A DNA stretch of 64,000 bases from Sphingobacteriaceae bacterium. GTDB taxonomy: Bacteria > Bacteroidota > Bacteroidia > Sphingobacteriales > Sphingobacteriaceae. The translations under genes were made by a program, and so were the position numbers. The notes beneath the pieces were generated by a model. It ran no database searches. It worked only from the letters and a program-made list of their open reading frames with translations, and was not told the origin of the DNA. The first letter of the stretch is position 1. Every line of letters starts with the position of its first letter. Positions 12,337 through 62,595 of this stretch are shown piece after piece. The stretch covers positions 62,001 through 126,000 of the forward strand of contig CANHGR010000006.1 in NCBI GenBank assembly GCA_947460875.1, written 5' to 3'.

Positions 12337-13074
12337 GTGATAGCAGATAGTTTAGTAATCATCCCCACTTATAATGAAAAGGAAAATATCGAAAGGATTA
12401 TTCGAAAGGTTTTCTCTTTGCCCATTGACTTTCACGTTCTCATAATTGATGACGGTTCGCCGGACCAAACTGCCGCAATTGTAAAACACTTGCAAACTGA
12501 ATTTCCTACCCGTCTTTTTTTAGAACAACGCAAAGGAAAATTAGGGCTTGGAACTGCATACATCCATGGATTCAAATGGGCATTAAAACACCACTACGAA
12601 TATATTTTTGAAATGGATGCAGACTTTTCGCATAACCCCGAAGATTTGATTCGTTTGCGTGAAACTTGCGTTTTCGGAGCAGATCTTGCCATCGGCTCGC
12701 GCTACGTAAACGGCGTCAATGTAGTAAACTGGCCAATGAGCAGGGTGTTAATGTCTTATTTTGCTTCGTATTACGTTCGACTCATCACCGGAATAACGAT
12801 ACAAGATGCCACCGCAGGTTTTAAGTGCTACCGTAGGATTGTTTTAGAGACCATCCAGCTACACAAGATTAAATTTGTTGGCTATGCTTTTCAAATTGAA
12901 ATGAAGTTTACTGCACTAAAACATGGATTCAATGTGGTGGAAATTCCGATCATTTTCACAGATCGCACCGAAGGTGTTTCAAAAATGAATACAAAAATCT
13001 TTAGAGAAGCCTTTATTGGCGTAATACAACTAAAACTTTCGAGTTTTTTCAAAAAATACCCGGCTCATCGCTAG
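12337..13074 (+). CDS. Polyprenol monophosphomannose synthase (GT2)
   Basis: 245 residues. The GT2 glycosyltransferase fold shows VIIPTYNEKENI, the nucleotide-sugar motif IDDGSPD and the metal-binding EMDADFSHNPEDL. GSRYVNGV and ATAGFKCYRR are typical of dolichol-phosphate-mannose synthase homologues. The start is GTG at 12337; no ATG lies close enough to keep the first strand. It has no C-terminal membrane domain, so it is the short soluble type, transferring mannose or another hexose to a polyprenyl phosphate. A 117-bp gap separates it from the transporter. Confidence 0.88.
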   Translation: MIADSLVIIPTYNEKENIERIIRKVFSLPIDFHVLIIDDGSPDQTAAIVKHLQTEFPTRLFLEQRKGKLGLGTAYIHGFKWALKHHYEYIFEMDADFSHNPEDLIRLRETCVFGADLAIGSRYVNGVNVVNWPMSRVLMSYFASYYVRLITGITIQDATAGFKCYRRIVLETIQLHKIKFVGYAFQIEMKFTALKHGFNVVEIPIIFTDRTEGVSKMNTKIFREAFIGVIQLKLSSFFKKYPAHR

Positions 13075-13203
13075 TTTAATTCAATTCAGCGGAACTGATT
13101 TTATAAAATTGAAAATTATCTCGGTCTTTTGCTTAATATTTTTGGTGATTTATTAATATAATGACAGTTATACTAAAAAAATACTAAAAATAAAGATGCA
13201 TAA

Positions 13204-13233
13204 TTGAAAAAATAACAATACGGCTTATATTTG
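13204..13233 (+). promoter_or_regulatory. Promoter of small RNA A
   Basis: TTG at 13204-13206, a 19-nt spacer, then TATATTTG at 13226-13233. This matches the Bacteroidetes -33/-7 consensus (TTTG and TAnnTTTG). The proposed transcript begins 5 nt after the -7 box. Confidence 0.65.
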
Positions 13234-13237
13234 TATC

Positions 13238-13296
13238 GGTTTATAATTGGTTAGTTTAAAGGCCTCCATTCTCCCCGCTTGGAGGCCTTTTCTTTT
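13238..13296 (+). ncRNA. Candidate small RNA A (seed-type)
   Basis: A short unit of about 55-59 nt. The 5' single-stranded part is GGTTTATAATTGGTTAGTT, then a hairpin GGCCTCC/GGAGGCC (13261-13267 with 13281-13287) with a C-rich 13-nt loop, then TTTTCTTTT. Its first 38 nt differ from RNA B at one position only. The 5' part is complementary to RNA M and to several mRNA leaders in the window. No reading frame of any length fits. That it is transcribed and acts in trans is inference. Confidence 0.6.
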
Positions 13297-13390
13297 CCTC
13301 CAATTTCCGGAAGCTACAACAGCGATTTTATTTAGTTCCACAGGTAGAAATTACCAGCCTGAAAAATACTATACAGCCACGAAAAAAAAT

Positions 13391-13420
13391 TTTGTGAATT
13401 ATATTAAATAGTTATATTTG
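13391..13420 (+). promoter_or_regulatory. Promoter of small RNA M
   Basis: TTTG at 13391-13394, 18-nt spacer, TATATTTG at 13413-13420, again the Bacteroidetes consensus. The proposed start is at the same distance (5 nt) as for RNAs A and B. Confidence 0.65.
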
Positions 13421-13424
13421 ATAT

Positions 13425-13485
13425 ACTAACTAACCAACTATAACCTAAAACCCTCATCTTAAACAAGATGAGGGTTTATTGTTTT
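13425..13485 (+). ncRNA. Candidate small RNA M (decoy-type)
   Basis: The 5' part reads ACTAACTAACCAACTATAAC and is followed by a perfect 13-bp hairpin (13448-13460 with 13465-13477, loop AAAC) and a weak T-rich tail. The 5' part is nearly the reverse complement of RNAs A and B: 10 bp unbroken, one mismatch, 5 bp, a bulge and 2 bp. It also resembles the leaders of carbohydrate genes in this window. It therefore looks like a leader mimic that could titrate A and B. No coding potential is seen. Confidence 0.55.
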
Positions 13486-13537
13486 CAGCAATATTTTCAG
13501 TGTTTTGTTAAAATTATGTTAAATTTTCAATAGAGTG

Positions 13538-13568
13538 TTTGAAAACTTAATAATTATCCGCACATTTG
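13538..13568 (+). promoter_or_regulatory. Promoter of small RNA B
   Basis: TTTG at 13538-13541, 19-nt spacer, CACATTTG at 13561-13568 (TTTG core kept, TA replaced by CA). The proposed start is 5 nt downstream, as for RNAs A and M. Confidence 0.55.
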
Positions 13569-13572
13569 AAGT

Positions 13573-13632
13573 GGTTTATAATTGGTTAGTTAAAAGGCCT
13601 CCATTCTCCCAGTTTGGAGGTCTTTTTTTTTA
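13573..13632 (+). ncRNA. Candidate small RNA B (paralogue of A)
   Basis: It has the same 5' GGTTTATAATTGGTTAGTT and the same CTCC-rich loop as RNA A. The hairpin is GGCCTCC with GGAGGTC (13596-13602 with 13616-13622, one G-U pair), followed by a strong T9 run. Over the first 38 nt it has one difference from A, while the flanking DNA is unrelated, so selection on the transcript rather than a recent large duplication is likely. Its hairpin ends 8 nt before the stop of the leftward SMP-30-like gene and may terminate that gene too. Confidence 0.6.
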
Positions 13633-14454
13633 ATTTAACTGAAAAGCAACAACCGTTCTCTTACTAAAAGTTGGAACATATATAATTTTCTTTTTAGGAT
13701 CGTAACCGATATCTGCAATATTTGATCGATCCGCGCGAGTATCCAATAGTGTTTCAAATTTTCCATCCGCATATAGGTATTGCAAAACGCCGCTCCATGA
13801 ACTAATCAGAAAATCGCCATTTCCCATTGGTTCAATGCCATCTAGTCCGGCTACTAATCCATCAGCCAGTTTTACTAAGCTTTTATCAGGAGCAACTTTC
13901 TGCACTGCTCTGCCAGTTAATACAAACAGCTCATTGCCAACGCTTTTAAGTCCGTTAACACTTGGAGCACTATCTATAAAAATTTCAGCTTTGCTATCTA
14001 CAATTCTGTAAATTTTTCCGGCAGCAGAATCAGAAACATAAATGATACCCTTACTATCTATAGTGATGTCATTAAATACTCTAGCACCCGGCACCGCTAT
14101 TTTCTGCAGTATTTTTCCTGAGCGGATATCAATAACAACAACTTCGGCCAAATCAGCGACATAGAGCTTCTTTCCGAACTTGCCCATTCCTTTTGGAGCG
14201 TTTAGTCCGGTAACCCAGTTCGTATCTGCTTTACTTCCATCCAGGCTCAATCTTGCAACTCCGCCTTTGCCATCAGCAACGCTGGGACTACCATTAATCA
14301 GAGAGACATAGAGCGTCTTATTTTTCATGTCTGCAAAAACTGATTCGGGGACAGCGAAGATCGGCCCGGTTTCCCATAACTTAGTTACTTGATGTGTTTG
14401 TGCCTGCGAGAAAAAACATATTCCGACAAAGGCTAGTGATAGTAGATATTTCAT
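13630..14454 (-). CDS. Secreted SMP-30/NHL-like beta-propeller protein
   Basis: 274 residues from the ATG at 14454, which starts the signal peptide (MKYLLSLAFVGICFFSQAQ). An ATG at 14490 would add 12 residues with no signal character. The propeller repeats resemble SMP-30/gluconolactonase and NHL proteins: FNDITIDSKGIIYVSDSAAG, ANIADIGYDP-like and APKGMGKFGKKLYVAD. A lactonase role would fit the sugar-acid theme downstream, but metal ligands are not clear enough to claim it. It is convergent with the small RNA cluster and divergent from the XRE regulator. Confidence 0.7.
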   Translation of the reverse strand: MKYLLSLAFVGICFFSQAQTHQVTKLWETGPIFAVPESVFADMKNKTLYVSLINGSPSVADGKGGVARLSLDGSKADTNWVTGLNAPKGMGKFGKKLYVADLAEVVVIDIRSGKILQKIAVPGARVFNDITIDSKGIIYVSDSAAGKIYRIVDSKAEIFIDSAPSVNGLKSVGNELFVLTGRAVQKVAPDKSLVKLADGLVAGLDGIEPMGNGDFLISSWSGVLQYLYADGKFETLLDTRADRSNIADIGYDPKKKIIYVPTFSKRTVVAFQLN

Positions 14455-14720
14455 AATTGTTTTTGTTGACAAAATTAGTTCAAATTGCAAATAATTCTAA
14501 TGAAGATAGTGTTAAAAATATTGTTTCTTGTGTTAATTTCGATTCTTAAAAAAAATATCTTTTAGGTCAACTTCCTCAATTACGCACTTTGCTTAATCGA
14601 TTTTGTACTACAAAATTTCAACAAAGCACTTTATCTGTAAATAAACCTGTATTTTTACCGCTCGGTTTGGGATGGTATTTGTTTAATTACGCTGCCTTCC
14701 ATTTAGCTTAGCATTTCTTA

Positions 14721-15302
14721 ATGAATACTTTAAATATTTCACTTTTAGTTGAAGACGCTTCCACCAAAGCTCTCAACATTGGAGATCGCATTCGTATTTT
14801 ACGCAGCAATCAGAAAAGAACATTACAAGAAATTGCTGACCTATGCGAGCTTTCTAAAAGTATGATCTCCAAGATCGAGAATAACAAAACCGTACCATCT
14901 GTGGCAGCGTTAGTTAAAATTGCAAAAGCATTGGGAACCAATATATCAAGTTTACTCGAACAGGATGAGTGGTTAAATGCAATTATGACTTCGCGAGTTA
15001 AAGCTATGGAAAATTTAACACCAACTGACAAGGGTTATTCAATCTATCCTTATGGATCGAACTATCCTGAGAAGAAAATGCAACCCTTTCTGTTTGTCGC
15101 AAAAAAAGGTGAAGTAAAGCACCACCAGCTTGTCCATGAAGGCGAAGAGTTCATTTATATAATCAGCGGCGAAATGAAAATGCAGGTTGGAGAAATTCAA
15201 TATTCTTTAAAAGCCGGCGATACGCTTTACTTTAATTCTCTACTGAAACATGGTGTGATGCCGGTATCTGAAGAGGTAATCTACCTCGATATTTTCGTTT
15301 AA
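14721..15302 (+). CDS. XRE-family regulator with C-terminal cupin domain
   Basis: 193 residues. An XRE helix-turn-helix occupies about 20-75 (IGDRIRILRSNQKRTLQEIADLCELSKSMISKIENN). A cupin_2 domain covers about 110-190 (HHQLVHEGEEFIYIISGEMKMQVG and LKAGDTLYFNSLLKHGV). Such regulators sense a small ligand in the cupin barrel and bind operator DNA. It lies 549 bp upstream of susC in the same direction and is the only transcription-factor gene near the locus, so it is a plausible local regulator. Ligand unknown. Confidence 0.87.
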   Translation: MNTLNISLLVEDASTKALNIGDRIRILRSNQKRTLQEIADLCELSKSMISKIENNKTVPSVAALVKIAKALGTNISSLLEQDEWLNAIMTSRVKAMENLTPTDKGYSIYPYGSNYPEKKMQPFLFVAKKGEVKHHQLVHEGEEFIYIISGEMKMQVGEIQYSLKAGDTLYFNSLLKHGVMPVSEEVIYLDIFV

Positions 15303-15815: not shown

Positions 15816-15834
15816 GACTAACCAATCATTAACC
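15816..15834 (+). promoter_or_regulatory. susC leader motif complementary to small RNAs A/B
   Basis: GACTAACCAATCATTAACC lies 17 nt before the susC start codon. Over 18 nt it differs from the reverse complement of the RNA A/B 5' end at two positions. Similar motifs precede other carbohydrate genes here. A binding role is inferred. Confidence 0.45.
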
Positions 15835-26673: not shown

Positions 26674-26693
26674 CAACATTATATAAACCACCA

Positions 26694-26712
26694 GCTAACC
26701 AAACTAATAACC
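26694..26712 (+). promoter_or_regulatory. GH3 leader motif of the CTAACCAA type
   Basis: GCTAACCAAACTAATAACC abuts the GH3 ATG. It matches RNA M with two single-nucleotide insertions, so it could pair with RNAs A/B across the start codon region. Confidence 0.4.
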
Positions 26713-32334: not shown

Positions 32335-32553
32335 AAAAGCAGTGAGCCATGGAGGTTGGCGGGTGGAGTAAGGAGCAACGAATAAGGACGCTGTTCGGAT
32401 GGGCGATAAGACAAGGAGATCGACTTTAGAAATAACAAAAACTTGAATCATAGCGTAAACCAAATTAAAAAAATTATGCTCGATGTCGTTCAGAATTCCG
32501 GACGCAAGAACTTCAGACCTCTGAGTTCTGTCCTCCACCCCTTAAGAAATAAA

Positions 32554-32568
32554 CCAACCAAATAAACC
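32554..32568 (+). promoter_or_regulatory. GH39 copy 2 leader motif
   Basis: CCAACCAAATAAACC ends 1 nt before the ATG. Against the reverse complement of RNA A/B it needs a 2-nt deletion and one substitution. The rest of the 32335-32553 spacer shows only an imperfect hairpin at about 32501-32523. Confidence 0.35.
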
Positions 32569-32569
32569 A

Positions 32570-62569: not shown

Positions 62570-62577
62570 TGTATATT

Positions 62578-62595
62578 GGTTTAAATTGGTTAGTC
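62578..62595 (-). promoter_or_regulatory. gntP leader motif, best match to small RNAs A/B
   Basis: On the minus strand it reads GACTAACCAATTTAAACC, 9-26 nt before the gntP start codon. It lacks only one A compared with the reverse complement of RNA A/B over 18 nt (17 of 18). Confidence 0.5.

Follow-up and report, generated by a model that had tools for sequence, protein, structure and literature searches.

Architecture of the locus

Between a glycosyltransferase gene (12337-13074) and an unassigned gene on the minus strand (13630-14490) is a gap of 430 bp, which raises the question of what is encoded there and what the products might do. It lies in a 64-kb stretch of a Sphingobacteriaceae genome, which was analysed as a whole and is referred to here as the window. 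Direct reading of the sequence revealed three consecutive promoter-RNA-terminator units, all on the plus strand (13203-13632), as described before in a first-pass annotation. With a strict definition of promoter plus terminator, five distinct units were found in the window, three of which follow each other within these 430 bp; Markov shuffles searched with the same definition gave 0.7 units per window, with a maximum of 4. The box pairs, the spacers of 18-19 nt and the starts 5 nt past the second box also agree with that annotation: RNA A is predicted to start with the GG at 13238, 5 nt past the box TATATTTG, the middle RNA with the A at 13425 and RNA B with the GG at 13573, downstream of a box, CACATTTG, that has one mismatch to TAnnTTTG (Table 1). 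In the predicted folds of all three RNAs, the 5' part stays unpaired and the 3' part forms a strong hairpin; the hairpin of the middle RNA has 13 bp and is followed by a T-rich tail, that of RNA B by nine T. RNAs A and B are identical at 37 of their first 38 nt, again as annotated. From the promoters and terminators, we infer that the three units are transcribed.

Table 1 Features of the locus and putative pairing sites in the window
Feature	Position	Strand	Description	Basis
Promoter of RNA A	13203-13233	+	ATTG 13203-13206, 19-nt spacer, TATATTTG 13226-13233	Sequence
RNA A	13238-13297	+	~60 nt, member of a multicopy family	R1 model, 61 bits in own genome; relatives
Conserved unpaired 5' segment (seed) of RNA A	13238-13257	+	GGTTTATAATTGGTTAGTTT	Comparison of 32 copies; fold
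Terminator hairpin of RNA A	13258-13290	+	CTCCCC loop, then T run	Fold -18.7 kcal/mol, z -2.9
Promoter of middle RNA	13391-13420	+	TTTG 13391-13394, 18-nt spacer, TATATTTG 13413-13420	Sequence
Middle RNA	13425-13485	+	~61 nt, antisense to A/B 5' ends, proposed decoy	Duplex energy
Complement of A/B seed in middle RNA	13428-13445	+	AACTAACCAACTATAACC	One central mismatch, one bulge
Terminator hairpin of middle RNA	13448-13477	+		Fold -18.9, z -6.3
Promoter of RNA B	13538-13568	+	TTTG 13538-13541, 19-nt spacer, CACATTTG 13561-13568	Sequence
RNA B	13573-13631	+	Second family member in the locus	R1 model, 61.5 bits; 37/38 identity to A
Terminator hairpin of RNA B	13592-13626	+		Fold -18.2, z -3.7
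Putative site, leader of SusC-like receptor	15816-15834	+	Start codon 15852	Duplex -19.0 kcal/mol
Putative site, leader of GntP-family permease	62577-62595	-	Start codon 62569	Duplex -22.0 kcal/mol
Putative site, GH3 leader	26693-26712	+	Start codon 26713	Duplex -16.0
Putative site, GH39 leader	32546-32569	+	Start codon 32570	Duplex -15.4

Distribution and conservation of the A/B family

The 18-mer GGTTTATAATTGGTTAGT was found, exactly or with one mismatch, in 114 of 151 sampled Sphingobacteriaceae genomes with up to ~24 copies per genome, and the backwards control was near zero. BLAST with RNA A hit 28 of the 60 relatives, with as many as 15 matches in one genome, and a large share of these matches start exactly at query position 35, that is, at 13238. 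Conservation in relatives, on which the first-pass annotation had staked its proposal, is indeed present, and the RNA is multicopy across the bacterial family. Named carriers are Sphingobacterium, Parapedobacter, Pedobacter, Olivibacter, Arcticibacter, Daejeonella, Desertivirga, Pelobium and one Mucilaginibacter MAG. The first 15 nt, GGTTTATAATTGGTT, were invariant across 32 diverse copies. Among 193 copies, 119 distinct 5' terminator stems were counted, which vary in sequence yet stay paired, and the terminator loop is C-rich, with 118 copies of the CTCCCC type and 72 of the GCCCA type. RNAalifold returned no consensus pairs for the mixed sRNA alignment because the two hairpin types align badly; the stems were examined one by one instead. 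Sequence similarity among the copies begins and ends at the transcript boundaries. A homologue with an altered 5' end (CATAATACATAAATTGGTTGTAAGG) and a CATCTCCCC loop was seen in another genome (G004, L335).

A sequence profile, R1, found exactly four copies in the own genome (A, B, C1:137577 and C8:23945) and matched 8 Sphingobacteriaceae genomes; outside Sphingobacteriaceae, the sampled genomes of the class gave one weak match (E 7e-4) and no convincing homologue. In Rfam 15 no family reached the gathering threshold (best 26.9 of 55 bits), which fits the earlier statement that no described RNA family has this sequence, and in the open-access literature searched no described trans-acting small RNA for Sphingobacteriaceae was found. 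A and B almost certainly belong to a real, widespread and apparently undescribed sRNA family. The annotation had proposed three small regulatory RNAs of 55-60 nt with Bacteroidetes housekeeping promoters; for A and B, which are multicopy, conserved to the nucleotide from the predicted start and furnished with stems that stay paired, this is supported. The idea of three sister RNAs was rejected, since the middle one is antisense to A and B at their 5' ends, a relation that the first reading had missed.

A tRNA-like element upstream of many copies

In 51 copies a box lies nearby and a tRNA-like element is absent; the GG follows the end of this box by 4-5 nt in 9 of them, as in A, and by 13-15 nt in 38. 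Transcription would therefore start at the GG or, slightly further upstream, at the conserved (T)TCATAATTTA. A tRNA-like element directly precedes 56 of the 193 copies, including the C8 copy of the own genome. The element found there (C8:23966-24078, minus strand; L042/L292) is ~112 nt long and has a long variable arm. Its acceptor and T-arm pairs were retained, with paired changes, by all of the 18 sequences compared, and the hairpin of the variable arm likewise changes on both sides. The anticodon loop reads TTGTCTC, TTGTCCC or TCGTCTC, always with GTC and C38. A G occupies the discriminator position (G73), and the anticodon stem has a U-U mismatch. The element was called neither by ARAGORN nor by the Rfam tRNA model, and an ordinary tRNA-Asp is also present in the own genome. 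It occurs in 103 of the 151 genomes, some of which are without the seed, and in these it is trailed by another short RNA that also has a terminator. The position of the element suggests that the same RNA can be made by a second route, in which it would be released by tRNA-type processing. The C8 copy adjoins genes for an AsnC/Lrp-type regulator and a transketolase-domain (pyruvate dehydrogenase beta-like) protein, and in another genus a copy is located beside the same two genes.

The element also occurs in series. In one genus without the canonical seed it mostly comes as two elements in tandem, of which the second has a larger insertion (L304-L306, L308, L310-L315, L317, L319), followed by a variant trailer, ATAAATAATAAGTTAGTTAAGG, and a terminator. 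In a further genome without the canonical seed, at least five tandem elements form an array with 150-bp spacing (G004:C33:104503-105219), and tandem arrays of four to five units of tRNA-like element plus sRNA, with a spacing of ~370-400 bp, were seen in L139 (4000-5700), L088 and L299.

Some 20 intact copies are located on IMG/VR viral contigs, where 20 of 22 exact matches comprised the seed and a terminator-like hairpin, although BLAST of plasmid and phage records gave no match. Some of these viral copies (L429-L450) adjoin portal genes; two are near an integrase, with a possible attachment site.

Antisense relation of the middle RNA to A and B

The middle RNA consists of ACTAACTAACCAACTATAACCTAAAACCC and the 13-bp terminator, and for its pairing with the 5' end of each of the four copies in the genome a ddG of -17.4 to -19.8 kcal/mol was calculated. 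Similar units were searched for in the 151 genomes with the pattern TTTG-N4-12-AACTAACCAA. Overall, the hits were no more frequent than those of the control, and widespread decoys were dismissed on this ground. Three hits are less than 500 nt upstream of a family member on the same strand: that in the window, one in G030 (C13, 124 nt) and one in G006 (C20, 471 nt). The latter two, both from one other genus, have the same promoter arrangement (TTTG-spacer-TAnnTTTG) and carry the complement with a mismatch at the same position as in the middle RNA; their terminators differ from each other by paired changes, and their duplexes amount to -16.1 (G030) and -15.6 (G006). Decoy-like units are thus known in two genera only. 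Since the background is about one hit per genome, chance adjacency of such a unit and a family member is very unlikely, as estimated from copy number and genome size. The middle RNA is probably a decoy (sponge) of A and B that would act by titration.

Complementarity of A and B to gene leaders

Sphingobacteriaceae play an important part in glycan degradation in soil and water. The genes behind the complementary leaders in the window are mostly glycan-related. Seed pairing of -15 kcal/mol or lower was predicted for 6 of 37 window leaders versus 0.4 +/- 0.7 for shuffled seeds, and none of 60 shuffles reached 6. The density of sites was 3.6 per kb in the 45 nt before starts versus 0.09 in coding and 0.14 in other sequence. 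Besides the four leaders in Table 1, those of a PQQ dehydrogenase (-16.0) and a hydrolase (-15.2) belong to the six, and elsewhere in the own genome the leader of a GH10 xylanase reached -17.2. Pairing with these leaders is plausible in the own window, as far as prediction goes. An HTH-cupin regulator gene (14721-15302) lies just upstream of the SusC gene and is probably a local regulator of the glycan locus.

Own-genome stretches outside the window were not enriched (1 of 153 leaders). G013, which has no canonical seed, is still enriched, with 7 of 125 leaders at or below -15, 1.07 sites per kb and the motif in leaders of sugar genes; in G006 and G095, with many sRNA copies, leaders were little or not enriched. 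The motif may therefore predate the RNA or serve something else. SusC leaders of G006 and G095 were no more complementary than those of G013 and G004, and a general targeting of all SusC leaders was given up on the basis of this comparison. A diverged canonical copy in G013 that fits its leaders was searched for and not found, and the variant trailer seed of its genus gave no leader enrichment. In L325, L329 and L330, from genomes without the canonical sRNA, AACCAATTATAAACC-like leaders precede genes, which hints at an independent role of the leader motif.

Proposed mechanism and alternatives

With modest confidence, we favour the explanation that a trans-acting sRNA family, of which A and B would be two of the four own-genome copies, represses leaders of sugar-use genes and that the middle RNA is its decoy. 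As read from the sequence, A and B each have their own housekeeping-type promoter, an intrinsic terminator and, between the two, a ~20-nt unpaired 5' end that does not change across the bacterial family. The 5' end would pair with leaders of the ACTAACCAA..TAAACC type, at most ~40 nt upstream of the starts of genes for SusC, the GntP permease, GH3, GH39 and the GH10 xylanase, and this would block translation in the manner of FopS in Bacteroides. The middle RNA would mimic such a leader and end at once in a terminator, and for this reason it is taken as a decoy that titrates A and B and relieves repression; the same central mismatch in all three known decoys may, speculatively, keep the duplex from being cut. 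Other members have the same 5' end but are seemingly released from longer precursors, notably behind the tRNA-like element. Taken by itself, a role of the A/B family in the control of sugar genes is somewhat probable, with translational repression as its likeliest form.

A and B could be real regulators whose complementarity to leaders is a by-product of an A/C-rich AACCAA leader motif that glycan genes of the bacterial family have in common and that serves translation. The true partner of the 5' end would then be a single conserved mRNA, some other RNA or a protein that recognises the C-rich loop as well. The same leader motif in G013 without the RNA and the lack of enrichment in G006 fit this, as do a 5' end more constant than pairing with variable leaders needs and loops (CTCCCC or GCCCA) that are kept while the stems change; since, on the other side, the enrichment in the own window is ~26- to 39-fold and specific for leaders, and the decoy copies exactly the leader-like sequence, we consider this possible but rather doubtful. 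Less likely still, the middle RNA may be no decoy, but a remnant of the leader of a sugar-uptake gene that has been lost, or such a leader with premature termination. Its 5' part does resemble the SusC leader at 15816, and many such leaders exist, but what follows it is RNA B and no gene, and a compact promoter-complement-terminator unit with paired hairpin changes recurs next to a family member in another genus, where two genomes have it. That A and B are a selfish repeat or a spreading terminator cassette without regulatory role is very improbable: high copy number, tandem arrays, copies on viral contigs and the two near an integrase would suit such a repeat, whereas similarity confined to the transcript boundaries, contexts that vary (own promoter, tRNA-like precursor, 3' ends) and a seed and loop kept while the stems vary speak against it.

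The favoured explanation of an sRNA family with a decoy can be extended, more tentatively and with a good deal of doubt, to a family-wide riboregulatory circuit in which the invariant seed is made directly from a promoter or, as a 3' trailer, from a dedicated tRNA-like RNA whose anticodon loop is of the aspartate type (GUC, C38, G73), is carried by phages and is countered by a dedicated antisense decoy gene located between its copies. If so, release of the sRNA would be under the control of tRNA processing, perhaps of charging, and the question arises whether bacteria make regulatory RNAs in bulk with tRNA-processing enzymes.

Comparison with known small RNAs

The closest parallel is FopS of Bacteroides thetaiotaomicron, with 14 paralogues of 65-70 nt and reported copies on phage (PMC11697453). 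Both are multicopy (four copies in the own genome and up to ~24 in relatives here) and short (~60 nt here), and both combine a housekeeping promoter with a conserved 5' seed that is left unpaired and a terminator behind it. Pairing near the starts of SusC-like genes is a prediction for either, although the signal here is strong in the window and not general in relatives, and the phage copies there correspond to the copies on viral contigs here. By analogy, the A/B family would work like FopS. The partner protein of FopS, RbpB, carries an RRM_1 domain (PMC11697453); no RRM_1 protein was found in the own genome, and the control search gave matches in Bacteroides ihuae. Among the Rfam matches in the region there was no Bacteroides sRNA model, and FopS may be absent from that release. 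Membership of FopS is not claimed, because the R1 profile, unlike what homology would predict, has no convincing match among the sampled genomes of the class beyond Sphingobacteriaceae and the RRM_1 partner was not found in the own genome. The tRNA-like precursor of many copies and the decoy gene are unlike FopS, and the text of the FopS paper mentions no sponge or decoy (PMC11697453). With its constant seed, up to ~24 copies, phage copies and decoy gene, the system would be a second, directly testable FopS-like example of sugar-uptake control, on a remote branch of the phylum; a working decoy would give it a built-in antagonist as well.

GibS of B. thetaiotaomicron has ~145 nt and two seeds (PMC7366714). 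It resembles A and B in its unpaired 5' seed and in pairing with translation start regions, which is putative here, but differs in its length, its two seeds and its promoter.

Bacterial sRNA sponges such as SroC, the chb decoy of ChiX and 3'ETS-leuZ, a tRNA-linked RNA, are target mimics that titrate an sRNA. The middle RNA is likewise complementary to the seed and, judged by its promoter and terminator, would be a separate transcript; it differs in being a separate 61-nt gene with its own promoter between two copies of its sRNA partner. In genus g6 (L024 760, L027 761), the 3' UTR of a pyruvate dehydrogenase beta-like gene, whose locus also holds a copy of the sRNA, carries the seed-complementary ACTAACCAA immediately ahead of its terminator and might be a 3'-UTR sponge.
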